In this document: positions 6,829 to 37,538 of the stretch, piece after piece
Layout: every line of letters starts with the position of its first letter
How positions within the stretch are numbered: position 1 is the stretch's first letter
DNA from: a virus
Length of the DNA: 37,538 nt
Strand: one strand, 5' to 3'
Virus record (IMG/VR): IMGVR_UViG_3300010885_002277
Span: 1-37,538 of that record
Translations under genes and position numbers: made by a program
The notes under the pieces: model-generated
The model's database searches: none
What the model was told of the DNA's origin: nothing
What the model saw: the letters and a program-made list of their open reading frames with translations, nothing else

Positions 6829-7014
6829 ATGGGCAGTTCAGAATTTTATTGGTCGGCGTACTTAATGCAAATGCTGGCGGTGCAATGCGCCCAGCTTCAT
6901 GGTCAAGATGCGCTGGTAGATGAGTATATGCTCAAGGCTAACGAATATATCGATCTGCACTTTGATGCGATTGAGACGCATATGAACAATCTCAGGGAAT
7001 TTAATAATGGTTAA
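6829..7014 (+). CDS. Small acidic helical protein, unknown
   Basis: A 61-residue protein starting MGSSEFYWSAYLMQMLAVQ, predicted helical and acidic, with no recognised family. The ATG at 6829 is preceded by GGAAGGA at about 7 bases; a longer reading from 6646 runs through the hairpin region and has no ribosome-binding site. It follows the structured leader and overlaps the ParB-like gene by 8 bases, so it is the first gene of that transcript and the direct target of any leader control. Confidence 0.7.
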   Translation: MGSSEFYWSAYLMQMLAVQCAQLHGQDALVDEYMLKANEYIDLHFDAIETHMNNLREFNNG

Positions 7015-7822
7015 GCAAGGCAAAATTGGCACTAAAAAGGATCAGGCATGGCCAGCCGATCACGTCGAGCGCCGGTCGGTTGAAAGCCTGATCCCATACG
7101 CTCGCAATGCCCGCACGCACTCGGATGCACAGGTGGCGCAACTAGCAGCGTCTATTCAGGAATGGGGCTGGACTACGCCTGTGCTGATCGATGAAGCTGG
7201 CGGCATCATTGCTGGGCATGGTCGCATCATGGCGGCTCGTAAGCTGAACATCGAAGAAGTTCCTGTAATGATCGCCACAGGATGGAGCGAGGCGCAGCGC
7301 CGAGCATATGTGCTAGCGGACAATCAGCTGGCTATGAACGCTGGCTGGGATATGGATTTGCTAAAGGTTGAGCTTGGCGATCTCGGAGAGATGGGATTTG
7401 ACCTAGACCTTATCGGATTAGATCAGAAAGAAATCGAAGCAATATCTAACGATAATGTCGTTGGAAACATGTACTCCGATAAAGTGTCTGTCCCAACATA
7501 TGAGCCAAGCGAATCAAAGCCAAAGATCGAAGATTTGTATGATGATCTAAAAGCAATGGATCTCATCTTTTCTATTAAAGAAAGCAAACTGAACGAAAAA
7601 GAAAAACAATTTCTAATGGCGGCGGCATCTCGCCATATTGTTTTTGATTACTCTAAGATTGCTGATTTTTATTCTCACGCATCTGATGAGTGCCAAAAGT
7701 TGATGGAAGAAAACGCGCTTGTCATTGTTGACTTTAATCAAGCGATTGAGAATGGATTTGTGAAAATATCGAAGCAAATGGATGATCTTATTGATTACGA
7801 TGAAGATCACAATGAAGAATGA
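7007..7822 (+). CDS. ParB/Srx-domain protein with an AT-rich C-terminal extension
   Basis: A 271-residue protein. Residues about 22-110 are a ParB N-terminal (ParB/sulfiredoxin-fold) domain, with SLIPYARNARTHSDAQVAQL and the conserved GGIIAGHGRIMAARKL box. Phages often place such domains with DNA methyltransferase or base-modification genes, where they bind or cut DNA and hydrolyse nucleotides. From about residue 141 the character changes. The extension is Lys/Glu-rich, includes LMAAASRHIVFDYSKIADFY and ALVIVDFNQAIENGFV, and has no ParB helix-turn-helix. GC falls from 56% (7081-7380) to 36% (7441-7800) at this boundary. I think I have seen this kind of extension on other phage ParB proteins but cannot name it. 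Confidence 0.85.
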   Translation: MVKQGKIGTKKDQAWPADHVERRSVESLIPYARNARTHSDAQVAQLAASIQEWGWTTPVLIDEAGGIIAGHGRIMAARKLNIEEVPVMIATGWSEAQRRAYVLADNQLAMNAGWDMDLLKVELGDLGEMGFDLDLIGLDQKEIEAISNDNVVGNMYSDKVSVPTYEPSESKPKIEDLYDDLKAMDLIFSIKESKLNEKEKQFLMAAASRHIVFDYSKIADFYSHASDECQKLMEENALVIVDFNQAIENGFVKISKQMDDLIDYDEDHNEE

Positions 7823-8765
7823 ATATATTCTAGTAAGGCATGGTCAAACCTATTGGAACAAGAATGGGATCATGCATGGGCAGTACGACATACCCCTGAA
7901 CGATACTGGTCACAAACAAGCAAAGAAGATCGCGCAAGAGTTAAAGATCGAACATTTTGATCTTTGCTATTGCTCTCCATTACAGAGGGCAAAGTCAACG
8001 GCGGCTCGCATTCTGTTCAATCATCGCAACACAAGGGCGGTGTATGACAGAAGATTGATGGAGCTCAACAAAGGCCTGCTCGAAGGAAAACATCTCAACA
8101 GCGAGAAATTGCTAAAAAACGAAGATCATAAATTTTTGAAAAAATACCAGATCGAAAGCAAGAACGATTTTTTTATGAGGGTTAAGTCATTCGTTGCAGA
8201 TGTTGAGAGTCGATACACTGGAAAGAGAATCTTGATTGTCGCCCATAGCGGCACAATCAAAATGCTTATGTTCGCTTTTGATCCACCAAAAAAAGAACTG
8301 CATAAAGCCTACTACGATCTGCACATTAAAAACTGCAAGCCTTACAGAATCAAACCACCATCAGAGAAAGTCAGCAAAATGAAAATTGGATTCTTTCCCA
8401 TGGTCGCAGATGTCCTGCACGCTGGTCATGTGATCGCGCTTGAGGAAGCAAAGAAGCATTGCGATCTTCTGATCGTTGGTTTGCATTGCAACCCATCATA
8501 CAAAGAGCCACGCCAATCAATCTATGAACGCTATATGCAGCTTCGTGCTGTGAAATTTGTAGACGAAGTGATCCCATACGAAAGCTCAGATCGCGATGCT
8601 GATATGTTTGTATCGCTTGAATACGATGTGTATTTTCTTGGCGAAGATCATCGGCAAGACGAATGGGAAATGAAGGACAAGATCGAAGCTCTTGATAAAG
8701 AGATCATATATCTGAAGCGCAAACATGGATATAGCAGCACACGGGTGAAAAATGGAAAACTCTAA
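7812..8765 (+). CDS. Bifunctional histidine phosphatase / TagD-like nucleotidyltransferase
   Basis: A 317-residue two-domain enzyme. Residues 1-180 are a phosphoglycerate-mutase-type histidine phosphatase: LVRHGQTYWN carries the nucleophile His10, a Glu lies near residue 84 (RRLMELNKG), and IVAHSGTIK gives the second His145. Residues about 190-317 resemble glycerol-3-phosphate cytidylyltransferase (TagD) and related transferases: GFFPMVADVLHAGH contains the HxGH signature (203-206), DVYFLGEDH is the metal/substrate strand and YSSTR (307-311) corresponds to the ISSTxxR motif. The pair would remove one phosphate and activate a sugar or polyol phosphate as an NDP-linked donor. The start at 7812 overlaps the ParB-like gene by 11 bases. 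An ATG at 7800 is possible. Substrate unknown. Confidence 0.85.
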   Translation: MKNEYILVRHGQTYWNKNGIMHGQYDIPLNDTGHKQAKKIAQELKIEHFDLCYCSPLQRAKSTAARILFNHRNTRAVYDRRLMELNKGLLEGKHLNSEKLLKNEDHKFLKKYQIESKNDFFMRVKSFVADVESRYTGKRILIVAHSGTIKMLMFAFDPPKKELHKAYYDLHIKNCKPYRIKPPSEKVSKMKIGFFPMVADVLHAGHVIALEEAKKHCDLLIVGLHCNPSYKEPRQSIYERYMQLRAVKFVDEVIPYESSDRDADMFVSLEYDVYFLGEDHRQDEWEMKDKIEALDKEIIYLKRKHGYSSTRVKNGKL

Positions 8766-9654
8766 AAATTACGCAGTTTTCATTTTGACTCATGGCAGAC
8801 CTGACAACGTAATCACTTACAATGTTCTGCGTAGTTCTGGATATACGGGGAAAATTTATCTTATCGTCGATGATGAAGATCAGACAATCGATGAGTACAA
8901 AAAGAGATACAAAAATGAAGTCATAGTTTTCAGCAAGAGTTCATATCAAGGCAAGTTTGACTTAATGGACAACTTCAAGGGAAACAAGGTAATCGTGTAC
9001 GCTAGGAATGCTTGCTATGACATAGCAAGAAATCTTGGGCTCGATTATTTTTTTGAGTATGAAGATGATTATACAGGTTTTTACCATCGCTATGTTGATG
9101 GAGAAAAACTTGCAGCCATTAAATCCAAGCGAATGGATGATGTCTTATTGAGCATGATCGAGTGCTTAGACAGTACAAAATCAACAACGATTGCGTTTGC
9201 ACAAGGAGGAGACTGCATAGGAGGAGCTAAGGACTTTCATAGGGTGCAATTCAAACGCAAAGCAATGAATAGCTTTTTGTTTAAAGTGAATGAAGACCCA
9301 AAAGACGATTGCACTTTTATCGGAAGAATGAACGACGACGTAAATACATATTTAACACACGGAAAACTAGGAAAGCTGTTTTTCCAAATATCTAATGTCA
9401 TGTTGATACAAAAAGCCACTCAATCAAATGCTGGAGGAAATACAGAAGCATATAAAGAATTTGGAACTTATGTGAAATCTTTTTATTCTGTGATAGCTGA
9501 ACCATCTTGCTGCAAGATAGCTATGATGGGTACTGCGCATCAACGCATCCATCATAAAATAAATTGGAACAATGCTGTTCCGAAAATAGTTCATGAACGT
9601 CATAAAAAGACAAACAGAGAGATGGTCAATGGTTCGCATAGCACACAAGCCTGA
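8752..9654 (+). CDS. TET-associated-type glycosyltransferase (TAGT-like), GT-A fold
   Basis: A 300-residue protein with the features of the TAGT group of phage glycosyltransferases: an N-terminal strand and turn AVFILTHGRPDNVITYNVL, the donor-binding strand KIYLIVDDEDQTIDEY, the VIVYARNACYDIARNLGL helix and a metal-binding EYEDD (102-106), plus a second acidic RMNDDVNTY (192-200). This family was described from phage neighbourhoods with TET/JBP dioxygenases, as enzymes glycosylating oxidised bases in DNA. No such dioxygenase is present here. It overlaps the upstream donor-synthesis gene by 14 bases and the small terminase gene by 26. GC is about 35% in sampled lines. It would act in the cytoplasm on DNA or another acceptor; the family assignment is from recalled motifs. 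Confidence 0.82.
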   Translation: MENSKNYAVFILTHGRPDNVITYNVLRSSGYTGKIYLIVDDEDQTIDEYKKRYKNEVIVFSKSSYQGKFDLMDNFKGNKVIVYARNACYDIARNLGLDYFFEYEDDYTGFYHRYVDGEKLAAIKSKRMDDVLLSMIECLDSTKSTTIAFAQGGDCIGGAKDFHRVQFKRKAMNSFLFKVNEDPKDDCTFIGRMNDDVNTYLTHGKLGKLFFQISNVMLIQKATQSNAGGNTEAYKEFGTYVKSFYSVIAEPSCCKIAMMGTAHQRIHHKINWNNAVPKIVHERHKKTNREMVNGSHSTQA

Positions 9655-9994
9655 CGATAAAACGCGCAAGCAAGTGCTGGCTCTTGCTGGCTTTGGGATG
9701 ACTCACGATCAGATCGCAAAGGTAATGGACCTGAGCGATGAGACGTTGCGCAAATATTATCGTCACGAACTCGACACCGGATTGACAAAACTCAACGCGC
9801 AAGTGGCGCAGAACTTATTCAGCATCGCAACATCTGATCGCAAAGGCGCAGTCGCAGCCGCGATCTTCTGGATGAAGACGCGCGGGCGCTGGCATGAACG
9901 CATCGACATCAGCAACGAAGACGGTACGCTGAAGCCGGAGCCGATACAAGTCGCGGTGTTGGCAGCGTTGAATAAAATTCATGAACGCGACTGA
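9629..9994 (+). CDS. terS: Terminase small subunit
   Basis: A 121-residue protein with an N-terminal helix-turn-helix (AGFGMTHDQIAKVMDLSDET), then a coiled helical section and a FWMKTRGRWHERIDI tail, typical of small terminases that recognise the packaging site and oligomerise. It directly precedes the large subunit. The start at 9629 is chosen because the HTH begins shortly after and GAGAG lies upstream; a start at 9593 would add 12 residues inside the glycosyltransferase gene. GC returns to about 53% here, marking the end of the AT-rich island. Confidence 0.85.
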   Translation: MVRIAHKPDDKTRKQVLALAGFGMTHDQIAKVMDLSDETLRKYYRHELDTGLTKLNAQVAQNLFSIATSDRKGAVAAAIFWMKTRGRWHERIDISNEDGTLKPEPIQVAVLAALNKIHERD

Positions 9995-11363
9995 ACGGGC
10001 GCTATGCACGGCGCGTCTGTATAATTACAGCCGCCATATGTTTCGCGCTCGCAAGGGCGTGGAGATGCTTGAGAACGATCACCAGCAAATCATATGCGAA
10101 GCATTGGAGCGCGTCGTTACCGGTCACACCAATCGGCTGGTGATCAACGTCCCGCCTCGATCAGGCAAAACAGAACTGGCCGTTAAGAATTTTATCGCAT
10201 GGGCGATGGGCTTGTTTCCTGATGCTGAGTTTATCCACGCCAGCTATGCAAAGCGGCTTGCGACAGCGAACACCTATGAAGTGCGCGCAATCATGCAATC
10301 AGAAGAACACCGCGCAATCTTTCCTTGGACCGAGTTGCAAGGCGACAGCAAGGCGAAGGATGAATTTCGCACGGCTCAAGGCGGCGTCGTCTATGCGACC
10401 GGCGCAGATGGAACGATCACCGGCTATGGCGCCTCAAAGATGCGCGCGGCATTCGGCGGCGCAATCGTGATCGACGACCCGCATAAAGCGGGTGAAGGAA
10501 ATTCGGCGCTGATGCGTGAGAATGTGATCGCGTGGTACCAAAACACAATCGCTTCGCGCCTGAATAAACCTGATGGACCGATCATTGTCATCATGCAGCG
10601 CTTGCATGAAGAAGACTTGTCTGGATGGCTGCTGGCCGGCGGATCAGGCGAGAAGTGGGAGCATGTGAACATCCCAGCGCGCAATCTAGACGGCTCCAGC
10701 TTCTGGCCAGAGCAATTCCCTGAAGAAATGCTAACGCGTCTTGAATTCGCGTCGTCGTATGTGTTTGCTGGGCAATACATGCAAAGCCCAGCACCAATAG
10801 GCGGCGGCATGTTCAAGGATCACTGGTGGCAGATGATGGCTGCGCCACCGCCGACGCGCTGGCGTGCGATCTATGCCGACACCGCGCAGAAGACAGCCAC
10901 GCATAACGATTGGTCTGTGCTGCAATGCTGGGGCCAGACGCTTAACGGTCAAGCGGTCATGCTCGACATGGTGCGCGGCAAGTGGGAAGCGCCAGAGCTT
11001 GAAACAATGGCGCGCGCGTTCTGGAACAAGCACAAGAGTATCGACAACATGGGCGCGCTGCGCTCGTTCAAGGTTGAAGACAAGGTTAGTGGAACTGGGC
11101 TGATCCAAAAGCTCAAACGCGAAGGAATCCCGATCATCGGCATTCAGCGCAATATTGATAAGGTTACGCGCGCCTATGATGCGGCTCCTTTGATCCAAAG
11201 CGGCAATGTGGTATTGCTGAATAATGTTCCGCATCTGTCGGATTTTATGGCTGAGGCTTCTGTGTTCCCAAATGGCGCGCACGATGACATGATCGACACC
11301 GCGATGAGCGCGATCAACGATATGTTCAACGTCTCTGCCGCGCCTTCCATTCGTTCGCTATGA
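9981..11363 (+). CDS. terL: Terminase large subunit
   Basis: A 460-residue packaging motor with an ATPase then a nuclease domain. Walker A VPPRSGKT is at 57-64, the GAIVIDDPHK Walker B strand at about 160-169. The RNase H-like nuclease shows IYADTAQKT (Asp at 300) and a C-terminal HDDMIDT (434-440) acidic pair. It translocates DNA into proheads and cuts it. The length is slightly short of the average but both domains are complete. The ATG overlaps the small-subunit gene by 14 bases. The class and the circularly permuted assembly would fit headful packaging, but the packaging type cannot be read directly. Confidence 0.93.
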   Translation: MNATERALCTARLYNYSRHMFRARKGVEMLENDHQQIICEALERVVTGHTNRLVINVPPRSGKTELAVKNFIAWAMGLFPDAEFIHASYAKRLATANTYEVRAIMQSEEHRAIFPWTELQGDSKAKDEFRTAQGGVVYATGADGTITGYGASKMRAAFGGAIVIDDPHKAGEGNSALMRENVIAWYQNTIASRLNKPDGPIIVIMQRLHEEDLSGWLLAGGSGEKWEHVNIPARNLDGSSFWPEQFPEEMLTRLEFASSYVFAGQYMQSPAPIGGGMFKDHWWQMMAAPPPTRWRAIYADTAQKTATHNDWSVLQCWGQTLNGQAVMLDMVRGKWEAPELETMARAFWNKHKSIDNMGALRSFKVEDKVSGTGLIQKLKREGIPIIGIQRNIDKVTRAYDAAPLIQSGNVVLLNNVPHLSDFMAEASVFPNGAHDDMIDTAMSAINDMFNVSAAPSIRSL

Positions 11364-32992: not shown

Positions 32993-33198
32993 GCGATCTG
33001 GAAATGTATCAAGACATGGGCAGCGTAAAGGCGCAACTTGAAGTTCTGAATCGCGAAATGAAAGAACTGAAAACAGATGTGCGCTGCATACGAGAAGACT
33101 TTGCACAAGTCAAAGGCGGATGGCGCACATTGATAGGCGTTGCAGCAATCCTTGGCGCTAGTGTGTCATGGATCGCCAACTATTTCTTTCAGCGTTGA
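32989..33198 (+). CDS. Holin-like small membrane protein
   Basis: A 69-residue protein starting MSDLEMYQDMGSVKAQLEVL: a charged coiled-coil followed by a single C-terminal membrane span (GGWRTLIGVAAILGASVSWI). This coiled-coil plus one-span layout is typical of small phage holin-like proteins. It overlaps the Rz1 stop (ATGA) and is the last rightward gene; its stop overlaps the convergent GcrA gene by about 10 bases. Identity as the actual holin is inferred from position. Confidence 0.7.
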   Translation: MSDLEMYQDMGSVKAQLEVLNREMKELKTDVRCIREDFAQVKGGWRTLIGVAAILGASVSWIANYFFQR

Positions 33199-33716
33199 GC
33201 GCCAGCTAACCACTGTTTCAAAGATTGACACTTTTTGATTTCTGCTATTTCGGCAGGAGTCAATTTGCGCTTTTTTACAAAAACAATTCCGTGATGCTCA
33301 GAACAATAATTGGTTTTGCTATCGCGCGTCACAGCACCGCAGAAATAATGCTGATCGTTGAACCGGCTGGTCGGAAAACGGCATTGATTATGCTCCAGAT
33401 CAATTAGCGCCAATCCGTTAGCGGCTGAACTGTTTTCATCTTGATACATGATCGGCGCATCCGTCAGCAGATGATCTGGCAGTTTTATTTTTTGATCTCT
33501 TGGCTTGCGTAATTTATGCCCGTGTTTTGCTATATTTCCAAGACGCCCGCGTTTTGAGTATTCAAACACTATTGGCCGCGTAATGATGCCAGAAGGGCGA
33601 AGCCTTGTTACAACGCCAATGATGGTGTTGCGGGTGATGTTCAATTCCATTGAAATAAATGTGGCGCTCTTGTTAGCGTTCCAAAGTCTAACGATTTCTG
33701 CGTTTCTATCGTTCAT
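33189..33716 (-). CDS. GcrA-like regulator
   Basis: A 175-residue protein of the GcrA cell-cycle regulator family. Residues 1-45 form the N-terminal helix-turn-helix (IVRLWNANKSATFISMELN, TRNTIIGVVTRL). The C-terminal part carries QCRFPTSRF (Cys112), HYFCGAV (Cys126) and NYCSEHH (Cys138, His141), the GcrA Cys/His pattern. In Caulobacter GcrA works with RNA polymerase at promoters affected by GANTC methylation. A phage copy could redirect host or phage transcription in an alphaproteobacterium. It overlaps the upstream gene by 11 bases (AGAGAAAAAAA before the ATG). Confidence 0.88.
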   Translation of the reverse strand: MNDRNAEIVRLWNANKSATFISMELNITRNTIIGVVTRLRPSGIITRPIVFEYSKRGRLGNIAKHGHKLRKPRDQKIKLPDHLLTDAPIMYQDENSSAANGLALIDLEHNQCRFPTSRFNDQHYFCGAVTRDSKTNYCSEHHGIVFVKKRKLTPAEIAEIKKCQSLKQWLAGAQR

Positions 33717-36089: not shown

Positions 36090-36265
36090 TCGCCCGGCGT
36101 TGCGGCGAACTCTTCAGGCGGCTCCATGTGGAACTTATCGCACATGCCATCGCTCGCGTAATAATTGCAAGTGTGGCAGCACTTCGGCGGTCCAGCCTGC
36201 ATCCACGCCCAATAATCTTTTACGAACTGTGGCGTCGGATGCTTCTTCAACTGCGGATTGCTCAT
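36056..36265 (-). CDS. Small Cys-rich phage protein
   Basis: A 69-residue protein with PKCCHTCNYYASDGMCDKF and PGECSAWKPEM, a cysteine pattern found in short phage proteins encoded near replication and recombination genes. The cysteines probably bind zinc. The ATG at 36265 overlaps the helicase TGA (ATGA) with AGAGGGA upstream; an ATG six bases earlier touches the ribosome-binding site. It overlaps the VRR-NUC gene by 34 bases. Confidence 0.72.
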   Translation of the reverse strand: MSNPQLKKHPTPQFVKDYWAWMQAGPPKCCHTCNYYASDGMCDKFHMEPPEEFAATPGECSAWKPEMPF

Positions 36266-37538
36266 GCCCATTCCCTCTTAACGACGCGGAAAAACTTTCC
36301 ATCTTGACGATATTCTATCGTTTTTGGATATTGTCCAGCCGATAATCCATCAGCCATTTGTTCAAAGTCTCGCACTCGCATCAAATCTAATACGGCTCCG
36401 GCTTGGTTAGCAATTACGGCAATGGCGCGCCTTGCTTTCTCTCCTGCATATCCTTCATGCGTTATTGGGAAGTATTCAGTAACAGATTTGTCAGACAGAT
36501 TTGAGCCGTAATAAGTAGCGGCGAGCATTTCTTTGCCGCTAGTGCGACTGATGTGCTTGCGCCATACCCATTTACTGACATTCATATTATGCCCGTCAAG
36601 GCCCATGATGTCGTCATCGCGCAAGTTCATAGACTTTGGCGGTGGCGCAGGAAATGGATTGCCGCACGCTGGGCAAACTTGCGCCGATATGTGAACGATC
36701 TCGTTGCAAGCCTCGCAGACTTTAGACGGCGCTTCGCCTGTCCCATCGCCTTTCTTCTTCGGCGCTTGAACTGCCGTGATCGGTCCATGCGTTTCGACAA
36801 CGCCTGCAAAGTCTAAAACCAGACAATGATCGGTGTGGCTCTTCGGTCGCATTCCTCGCCCAGCCATCTGAACGTAAAGCGATGGACTCATGGTCGGGCG
36901 CAGCATCGCAATCAGATCGATGTCGGGATAATCAAATCCGGTCGTAAGCACGTTGGCGTTAGTCAGTGCTTGCAGGCGACCAGCTTTGAAATCTGCAATC
37001 ATTCGCTCGCGTTCCTTCTTTGGCGTTTCTCCTGTCACGCACTCAGCGTTGATGCAGCGCGATTGCAGCACGCTTGCAATATGCTGCGCGTGCTTGACGC
37101 CAGTGCAGAAAAACAGCCACGCCTTGCGATTGCCCGCCAGCGATATGACCTTATCAACAACAGCTTGGTTCTTGTCGTCATTATCGACTGCGGCTTGAAG
37201 TTCACTCTCGATAAATTCTCCTCCACGTTTATGCACGCCAGACAGATCAAACTTTATGCCGGTGATCTTGCTGCGAAGAGGCGCAAGGAATCCTTTGTAA
37301 ACGAGTTCTTCAATCGTCACGGATTCCAACAGATCATCGAACAGGGCTGGCTTGTCGGTGATCAGCCCGTGGCCGAGCCGATACGGCGTCGCGGTCAAGC
37401 CGATAACGCGCAGCATGGGATTGATCGCTTGCAGATTGCCGATCAGCTTTCGATAACCGCCTTCGTCCTTGTGCGAAACAAGGTGGCATTCGTCAATGAT
37501 GATCAGATCGATGTGGCCGATCTCGGATGCCTTATCGA
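36262..37538 (-). CDS. Superfamily 2 DNA helicase, C-terminal part (N-terminus at 1-335)
   Basis: The rest of the helicase begun at 335-1. It carries the DECH motif II (IIIDECHLVSHKDEGG, near the window end), motif III-like GLTATPYR, the C-terminal RecA domain with TTGFDYPDI and QMAGRGMRP (motif VI), and a zinc ribbon CEACNEIV...CPACGNPFP after it. The end of the window falls within this gene. The frame is continuous when the 18-base end overlap is merged. It is the largest protein of the recombination block. Confidence 0.9.
   Translation of the reverse strand, partial: DKASEIGHIDLIIIDECHLVSHKDEGGYRKLIGNLQAINPMLRVIGLTATPYRLGHGLITDKPALFDDLLESVTIEELVYKGFLAPLRSKITGIKFDLSGVHKRGGEFIESELQAAVDNDDKNQAVVDKVISLAGNRKAWLFFCTGVKHAQHIASVLQSRCINAECVTGETPKKERERMIADFKAGRLQALTNANVLTTGFDYPDIDLIAMLRPTMSPSLYVQMAGRGMRPKSHTDHCLVLDFAGVVETHGPITAVQAPKKKGDGTGEAPSKVCEACNEIVHISAQVCPACGNPFPAPPPKSMNLRDDDIMGLDGHNMNVSKWVWRKHISRTSGKEMLAATYYGSNLSDKSVTEYFPITHEGYAGEKARRAIAVIANQAGAVLDLMRVRDFEQMADGLSAGQYPKTIEYRQDGKFFRVVKREWA
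37520..37537. repeat. Terminal direct repeat with positions 1-18
   Basis: Bases 37520-37537 are identical to 1-18. The last base of the window (37538, a) differs from base 19 (c). The overlap restores one open helicase frame, so the window is one circular unit of about 37,519 bp. The mismatch of the final base may be an assembly artefact. Confidence 0.9.

Follow-up and report, generated by a model that had tools for sequence, protein, structure and literature searches.

A ParB-linked partner domain and a phosphatase-nucleotidyltransferase fusion accompany a TAGT glycosyltransferase in a candidate phage DNA glycosylation cassette

Introduction

Glycosyltransferases of the TAGT family are known from phages. 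In two reports, the T6 member is described as placing glucose on the glucosylated hydroxymethylcytosine of DNA (PMC13216743, PMC13390438), and a 2026 survey that found solitary TAGT homologues, with no T4-type glucosyltransferase beside them, in 288 of its 753 phage genomes termed them potentially novel transferases (PMC13216743). Here we describe a 37.5-kb virus record (IMG/VR IMGVR_UViG_3300010885_002277, positions 1 to 37,538; the whole stretch analysed, hereafter the window) in which a TAGT gene is preceded by genes encoding a ParB-like protein and a fusion of a histidine phosphatase (HP) domain to a HIGH-type nucleotidyl(cytidylyl)transferase (CT) domain. The C-terminal domain of the ParB-like protein, here named PCD, lies beside TAGT in practically all loci for which sufficient sequence is available and, on that co-occurrence, is its obligate partner. 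Judged from its gene content, the cassette most likely serves to glycosylate phage DNA by means of a custom-made donor, a reading held with moderate confidence.

The closest described system is that of T6, in which ggt (beta-glucosyl-HMC-alpha-glucosyltransferase) adjoins the gene for gp42, a deoxycytidylate (dCMP) hydroxymethylase, and in which TAGT shares the Pfam family PF20691 with that of the window. The T6 protein is distant (39 bits to PF20691) and no PCD was found anywhere in the T6 genome; whereas T6 pairs its TAGT with gp42, the PCD-TAGT records tested were without gp42-type enzymes. Metavirome systems attributed to Iyer (2013) and Burke (2021) reportedly use TAGT as a DNA glycosyltransferase, with a TET dioxygenase making 5-hydroxymethylcytosine. 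Such systems rely on TET, whereas none was found in the PCD-TAGT records by a search that had no positive control. Donor synthesis encoded by the phage itself alongside a glycosyltransferase is a feature shared with the arabinosylation cluster of RB69 and Mosigvirus, where a predicted isomerase, epimerase, sugar kinase and nucleoside triphosphate (NTP) transferase accompany a DNA glycosyltransferase, according to the accessible text of PMC13390438 and PMC6024577. That cluster differs in having a 5-hydroxy-dCMP synthase of the thymidylate-synthase (TS) family and other donor enzymes, and the same text mentions no ParB or PCD partner. Fusions of ParB to methylases, such as Bce_0392 (cited in PMC5512222), resemble the window protein in joining a ParB/Srx N-domain to a DNA-modifying partner, which is a methyltransferase in those proteins and PCD-TAGT in the window.

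Three features are new relative to these systems: PCD as an obligate partner, HP-CT as a donor module and the lack of a T6-type hydroxymethylase. Among the papers searched, none joined ParB, a glycosyltransferase, DNA modification, phage and a cytidylyltransferase, though an earlier mention of ParB with TAGT is possible (Iyer et al. 2013).

Results and Discussion

Organization of the cassette

The three genes are consecutive on the + strand, each overlapping the next and the last running into the terminase small subunit gene. The features assigned were:

7007 to 7822, + strand: ParB-like gene (271 amino acids), ParB/Srx N-domain plus TAGT-partner C-domain; from PHROG 620 over residues 19-258 and a structure model
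7007 to 7441, + strand: ParB/Srx N-domain, residues 1-145; from VIA-align to 7bnr, PHROG 498, PADLOC MTase_II and identity patterns
7469 to 7780, + strand: PCD (TAGT-partner domain), residues 155-258; from alignments and coupling to TAGT
7782 to 8765, + strand: HP-CT gene (327 amino acids; probable start 7812, judged from relatives); from PF00300 and PF01467
7815 to 8351, + strand: histidine phosphatase domain (HP); RHG at residues 19-21, AHSG at 154-157
8364 to 8762, + strand: HIGH-type nucleotidyl(cytidylyl)transferase domain (CT); HAGH at 213-216, RKHGYSST at 313-320
8752 to 9654, + strand: TAGT glycosyltransferase (300 amino acids); from PF20691, PHROG 842 and conservation
9593 to 9994, + strand: terminase small subunit (context); PHROG 309, 1e-13
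9981 to 11363, + strand: terminase large subunit (TerL, context); PHROG 38, 1e-110
7395 to 9630, no strand: low guanine-plus-cytosine (GC) block holding PCD, HP-CT and TAGT; from a two-breakpoint maximum-likelihood fit

TAGT and its partner domain

The window glycosyltransferase is a member of the TAGT family, scoring 114.1 bits against PF20691 (cut-off 27.5) over the full profile (1-205) and matching PHROG 842 (8e-66). Residues D105, D106, Y107, D196, H267 and H268 were present in at least 97% of 90 sequences, and the DxD-type motif expected of a GT-A enzyme reads EDDY at positions 104-107.

Relatives were collected from viral contigs, bacterial genomes and named phages, each scan comprising the best 80 loci, such that very distant PCD copies without TAGT may exist. 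PCD was adjacent in all 43 of the 43 TAGT loci from bacterial genomes (one PCD being a fragment), and lay within 4 kb of 190 of 193 non-identical TAGT genes, all with at least 900 bases upstream; the latter set includes loci found with a PCD query, which makes the former the cleaner figure. Of the three exceptions, one is a contig that ends short of PCD (L082), one is a broken gene (L163) and one is a cluster of several TAGT genes in which PCD lies at a distance of approximately 4.1 kb (L277). Searched the other way, from PCD to TAGT, a second scan located TAGT in 79 of its 80 best loci, the remaining one being cut at a contig end. Where pairs were duplicated, the divergent TAGT was accompanied by its own divergent PCD (L338, L345, L355 and L364). 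Contigs of up to 161 kb were observed to hold duplicated PCD-TAGT pairs and clusters in which TAGT is present in several copies, L277 having five (L277, L320, L321, L333, L338, L345, L355 and L364).

The pair occurs in hundreds of phages, with PCD next to TAGT in bacterial, archaeal and T4-like phages; named examples include the archaeal virus HHTV-2, Nocardia phage NTR1, Lactobacillus phi jlb1 and E. coli vB_EcoS-673R7. PCD is a stand-alone protein of approximately 130-150 amino acids in many loci, and likewise stands alone beside TAGT in the large Vibrio phage pv27. This distribution bears on whether the cassette modifies the host surface (lipopolysaccharide, teichoic acid or O-antigen) and lies beside ParB by chance. 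Phage glycosyltransferases and cytidylyltransferases are able to modify surface glycans, but the coupling to PCD spans phages of bacteria and an archaeal virus whose hosts have unlike envelopes, no flippase or membrane gene was seen in the unit and the T6 family member acts on DNA, making a surface role very improbable.

Alignments of PCD revealed the conserved motifs P-x-Y-E-P, RHxVF, YxH, SALVIxD and AIENG. Stand-alone copies matched no Pfam family, and PCD alone matched no PDB structure at E<1, a missing match that is no proof of a new fold. Structure modelling predicted a confident helical core, with the conserved PxYEP and SALVIxD segments at low confidence in isolation, as would be expected if these fold on a partner. 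Foldseek rows of 240 columns had suggested that PCD is a divergent ParB helix-turn-helix; this was rejected, as the high-scoring VIA-align rows stop at approximately residue 153 and PCD by itself gave no match at the above threshold. We propose a two-protein core for the system. One member is the GT-A-type glycosyltransferase TAGT; the other is PCD, a small domain of helices, which would probably bind TAGT and either present the acceptor or recognise it.

The ParB N-domain is exchangeable

The modelled N-domain has the ParB/Srx fold, aligning with CTPgammaS-bound ParB (7bnr) at a VIA-align Z of 15.2 and a root-mean-square deviation of 1.9 over 92 residues, whilst the Pfam ParB_N profile (PF02195) scored 22.9 bits, just below its cut-off of 26.3. 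By its matches to a DNA methyltransferase family (PHROG 498, 5e-51) and to PADLOC MTase_II (1.5e-38), this domain is the type fused elsewhere to DNA methyltransferases. Relative to the window, L295 retained 70% identity in the N-domain and only 46% in PCD and 47% in TAGT, whereas L050, L051, L107 and L110 had 21-31% in the N-domain and 47-67% in PCD and TAGT. Such opposite patterns indicate that the N-domain has been exchanged, and at least 12 changes of it are required on the TAGT tree. Judged from these comparisons, the N-domain is swappable and often absent, and is not as such the TAGT partner. The first-pass annotation, which counted a DNA-binding partner in the cassette, is amended in that the partner of TAGT is the C-terminal domain, the N-domain being optional. 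In the window, the ParB/Srx domain fused ahead of PCD likely keeps the complex on DNA.

Donor module

Both domains of the fusion carry the motifs of their families. The HP domain scored 136 bits against His_Phos_1 (PF00300; cut-off 21.7), with RHG at 19-21 and the second histidine, H155, in AHSG; the CT domain scored 50.2 bits against CTP_transf_like (PF01467; cut-off 21), with HAGH at 213-216 and SSTR at 318-321. The order ParB-PCD, HP-CT, TAGT was repeated in approximately 50 non-identical loci, mostly ahead of terminase, which answers in the positive a check for co-occurrence that had been suggested for the three genes.

One TAGT clade, supported at an SH-aLRT of 98, has CT in 14 of 14 members, in several gene orders; among the 90 rows, CT occurs in one further case outside it. 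All 14 TAGTs of this clade carry EDDY, against DDDY in 75 of the 76 others, and the clade shows a loop insertion ahead of the NDDVN motif. The link between EDDY and the CT clade is the strongest evidence that CT may feed the donor site of TAGT. In the enzyme first proposed to dephosphorylate and nucleotide-activate a small molecule, the phosphatase is an optional part, while CT is present throughout one TAGT clade.

The pathway envisaged would begin with HP stripping one phosphate from a host sugar bisphosphate, after which CT would transfer a nucleotide, from cytidine or adenosine triphosphate (CTP or ATP), onto the remaining phosphate to yield a private nucleoside diphosphate (NDP) sugar. 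The ADP-heptose pathway offers a parallel, in that GmhB and the C-domain of HldE likewise supply a phosphatase step and then a HIGH-type nucleotidyltransferase step, giving an NDP-sugar. The phosphatase GmhB is of the HAD type, whereas HP is a histidine phosphatase fused to its partner, and CT falls well below the cut-off of the HldE-type model. CT scored 52.7 bits against the heptose-1-phosphate adenylyltransferase domain (TIGR02199; equivalog cut-off 181.5) and 50.7 bits against glycerol-3-phosphate cytidylyltransferase (TIGR01518; equivalog cut-off 165.4), and its assignment as TagD or HldE was not supported by these scores.

Among solved structures, CT is closest to glycerol-3-phosphate cytidylyltransferases (2b7l and 1coz), which would favour a cytidine diphosphate (CDP)-alditol, such as CDP-glycerol, as the HP-CT product, with the cassette attaching an alditol or alditol phosphate. 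This appears quite unlikely, given that CT scores equally against domain II of heptose-1-phosphate adenylyltransferase, that GT-A enzymes of the GT2-like type normally take nucleotide sugars and that NDP-sugar enzymes are present in other PCD-TAGT loci. The latter comprise NAD-dependent epimerases, a uridine diphosphate (UDP)-galactopyranose mutase (L171) and a CofD-HAD protein with an NTP transferase (L198), all donor-type genes coupled to PCD-TAGT, and their presence supports the glycosylation of DNA with a custom donor. Methyltransferase genes were also coupled to the pair in some loci.

Several further arrangements of these domains were recorded. A full ParB-HP-CT fusion (L055/L105) was considered as a Rosetta-stone link and rejected, since the catalytic RHG is lost at its junction, which has the appearance of a deletion or of a chimera made in assembly. 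In-frame fusions of ParB-PCD to HP without RHG (L055, L105, L182 and L266) are probably of the same origin. In Vibrio phage pv27 (OR413349.1), a CT homologue (42% identity) at 91509-91907 lies approximately 83 kb from the PCD-TAGT pair at 174413-175842.

Acceptor and proposed function

TAGT occurs together with an enzyme that would form its donor and with a ParB domain whose kind is found joined to DNA methyltransferases; this combination points to DNA modification, in agreement with the role first proposed for the cassette. TAGT would move the activated sugar onto phage DNA around replication or packaging, and the sugar would probably shield that DNA from host nucleases. We infer DNA as the acceptor from this gene set, and likewise the identity of the sugar and nucleotide. 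The neighbourhood of the pair is DNA-centred, which further supports DNA glycosylation: terminase follows PCD-TAGT in many other loci, sliding-clamp (beta clamp) genes adjoin it in L114, L133, L216, L296 and L312 (some with scores near the cut-off), and a gene for a Toprim-DnaB helicase-primase protein lies beside it in L145. The placement before terminase that the first-pass annotation had noted is usual for ParB-PCD/HP-CT/TAGT loci, and elsewhere gives way to these replication genes.

Several observations weigh against this proposed function. As CT lies far below both equivalog cut-offs, no particular donor can be assigned, and some CT-bearing loci are without HP. A sugar acceptor hydroxyl is also required, and no known one is apparent on the DNA, as no T6-type hydroxymethylase, 5-cytosine (C5) methylase or TET was found in the records searched. 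The TS-family profile PF00303 was absent from the window and from 46 of 47 PCD-TAGT records, many of which may be fragments; these records comprised 26 apart from pv27 in a first search and 21, mostly larger, in a second. The single match, in pv27, was an ordinary thymidylate synthase beside dihydrofolate reductase, and as a positive control the search found gp42 next to TAGT in T6. A C5 methylase was absent from 26 records and TET/JBP dioxygenase (PF12851) from 27, the latter search having no positive control, and no acceptor-making candidate is annotated in complete genomes, among them those of vB_EcoS-673R7 and phi jlb1. With a T6-type hydroxymethylase in 0 of the 47 records, the acceptor is not a TS-made hydroxymethylpyrimidine in those tested.

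One way of supplying a hydroxyl, and a sub-case of DNA glycosylation, not an exclusive rival to it, is that an unrecognised enzyme first makes it on the base, this being the ParB/PCD protein, a host enzyme or, in some loci, a radical S-adenosylmethionine (radical-SAM) enzyme. Several loci do have radical-SAM genes alongside PCD-TAGT, but most loci, including the window, are without an adjacent oxidising enzyme, and stand-alone PCD plus TAGT suffices in many; prior hydroxylation is accordingly doubtful. The tightly coupled radical-SAM genes (L135, L155, L158, L161, L220 and L293) could perform base or sugar chemistry.

The lack of a known base hydroxyl in these genomes, the invariant tyrosine residues of PCD together with its obligate pairing with TAGT, and the position of the genes among late structural or replication genes could alternatively be accounted for by a protein acceptor, namely a phage or host DNA-binding protein such as terminase, clamp, capsid or ParB-PCD itself. 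However, the neighbours vary between terminase, clamp and primase, leaving PCD as the only common candidate substrate, and both the activity of the T6 TAGT on DNA and the DNA-methyltransferase type of the ParB N-domain argue against protein, which we regard as an unlikely acceptor.

Under DNA glycosylation, a more specific model may be put forward tentatively, as a possibility of lesser likelihood. PCD-TAGT would be a widespread two-component DNA glycosyltransferase that attaches sugars directly to a base without prior modification, or to some other DNA group that bears no hydroxyl, with PCD taking the place of the base hydroxylation of T4-like phages. Its donor modules (CT, HP-CT, UDP-galactopyranose mutase or epimerase) would be interchangeable.

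Base composition and genomic context

The likelihood fit placed the low-GC block at 7395-9630, with a GC of 0.388 against approximately 54% around it, and was approximately 78 log units better than a model with no block; support for the borders extended over 7305-7440 on the left and 9590-9760 on the right. By part, GC was 0.540 in the ParB N-domain, 0.365 in PCD, 0.408 in HP, 0.436 in CT, 0.372 in TAGT and 0.551 in TerL. The left border lies within the ParB gene, close to where its N-domain meets the C-terminal domain. As the GC of PCD was below that of the N-domain of the same gene in 39 of 39 HP-bearing loci, this position is not due to chance. The open reading frames, Pfam matches and GC fit together confirm the earlier description of three overlapping coding segments in an AT-rich block, for which the coordinates 7430-9654 were accurate and a GC of 35-36% was slightly low (38.8% for the whole block). 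The term 'acquired' is fair for a module with its own composition, though the module is old and widespread and not a one-off acquisition.

Elsewhere in the window, a GcrA-like regulator (PF07750) at 33189-33716 on the - strand hints at an alphaproteobacterial host, and one of 33 open reading frames scanned matched the N-terminal family of dATP/dGTP diphosphohydrolases (PF18909, 8.5e-32). A helicase gene near the record end (36262-37416, - strand) is without its N-terminal half, and the record is thus probably incomplete. PADLOC detected no defence system except the MTase_II match on the ParB N-domain, and general scans found no ParA among the window genes, no search aimed at ParA having been made.

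PCD-TAGT in Rac-type prophages of E. coli

Rac-type prophages carry the PCD-TAGT pair in E. coli: of 5426 complete genomes of the species, 1572 gave a match, and in 885 (approximately 16% of the 5426) the match covered 80% or more of the pair. K-12 MG1655 keeps only YnaK (L317; NC_000913.3, 1425377-1425640), the PCD, TAGT and terminase being gone. In a local scan of the fetched regions, the first 84 residues of YnaK matched the N-domain of an intact ParB-PCD protein, by which K-12 YnaK is a truncated relic of such a protein. At least one intact copy, in another strain, is marked in RefSeq as an incomplete pseudogene with a missing C-terminus.

Many TAGTs are now given a constant partner in PCD, around which the donor genes vary and the usual acceptor-making enzyme is missing in the records tested. 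A common class of E. coli prophage may thus carry an unnoticed system for the glycosylation of DNA (or protein), and the intact pairs in Rac-type prophages make the model testable.

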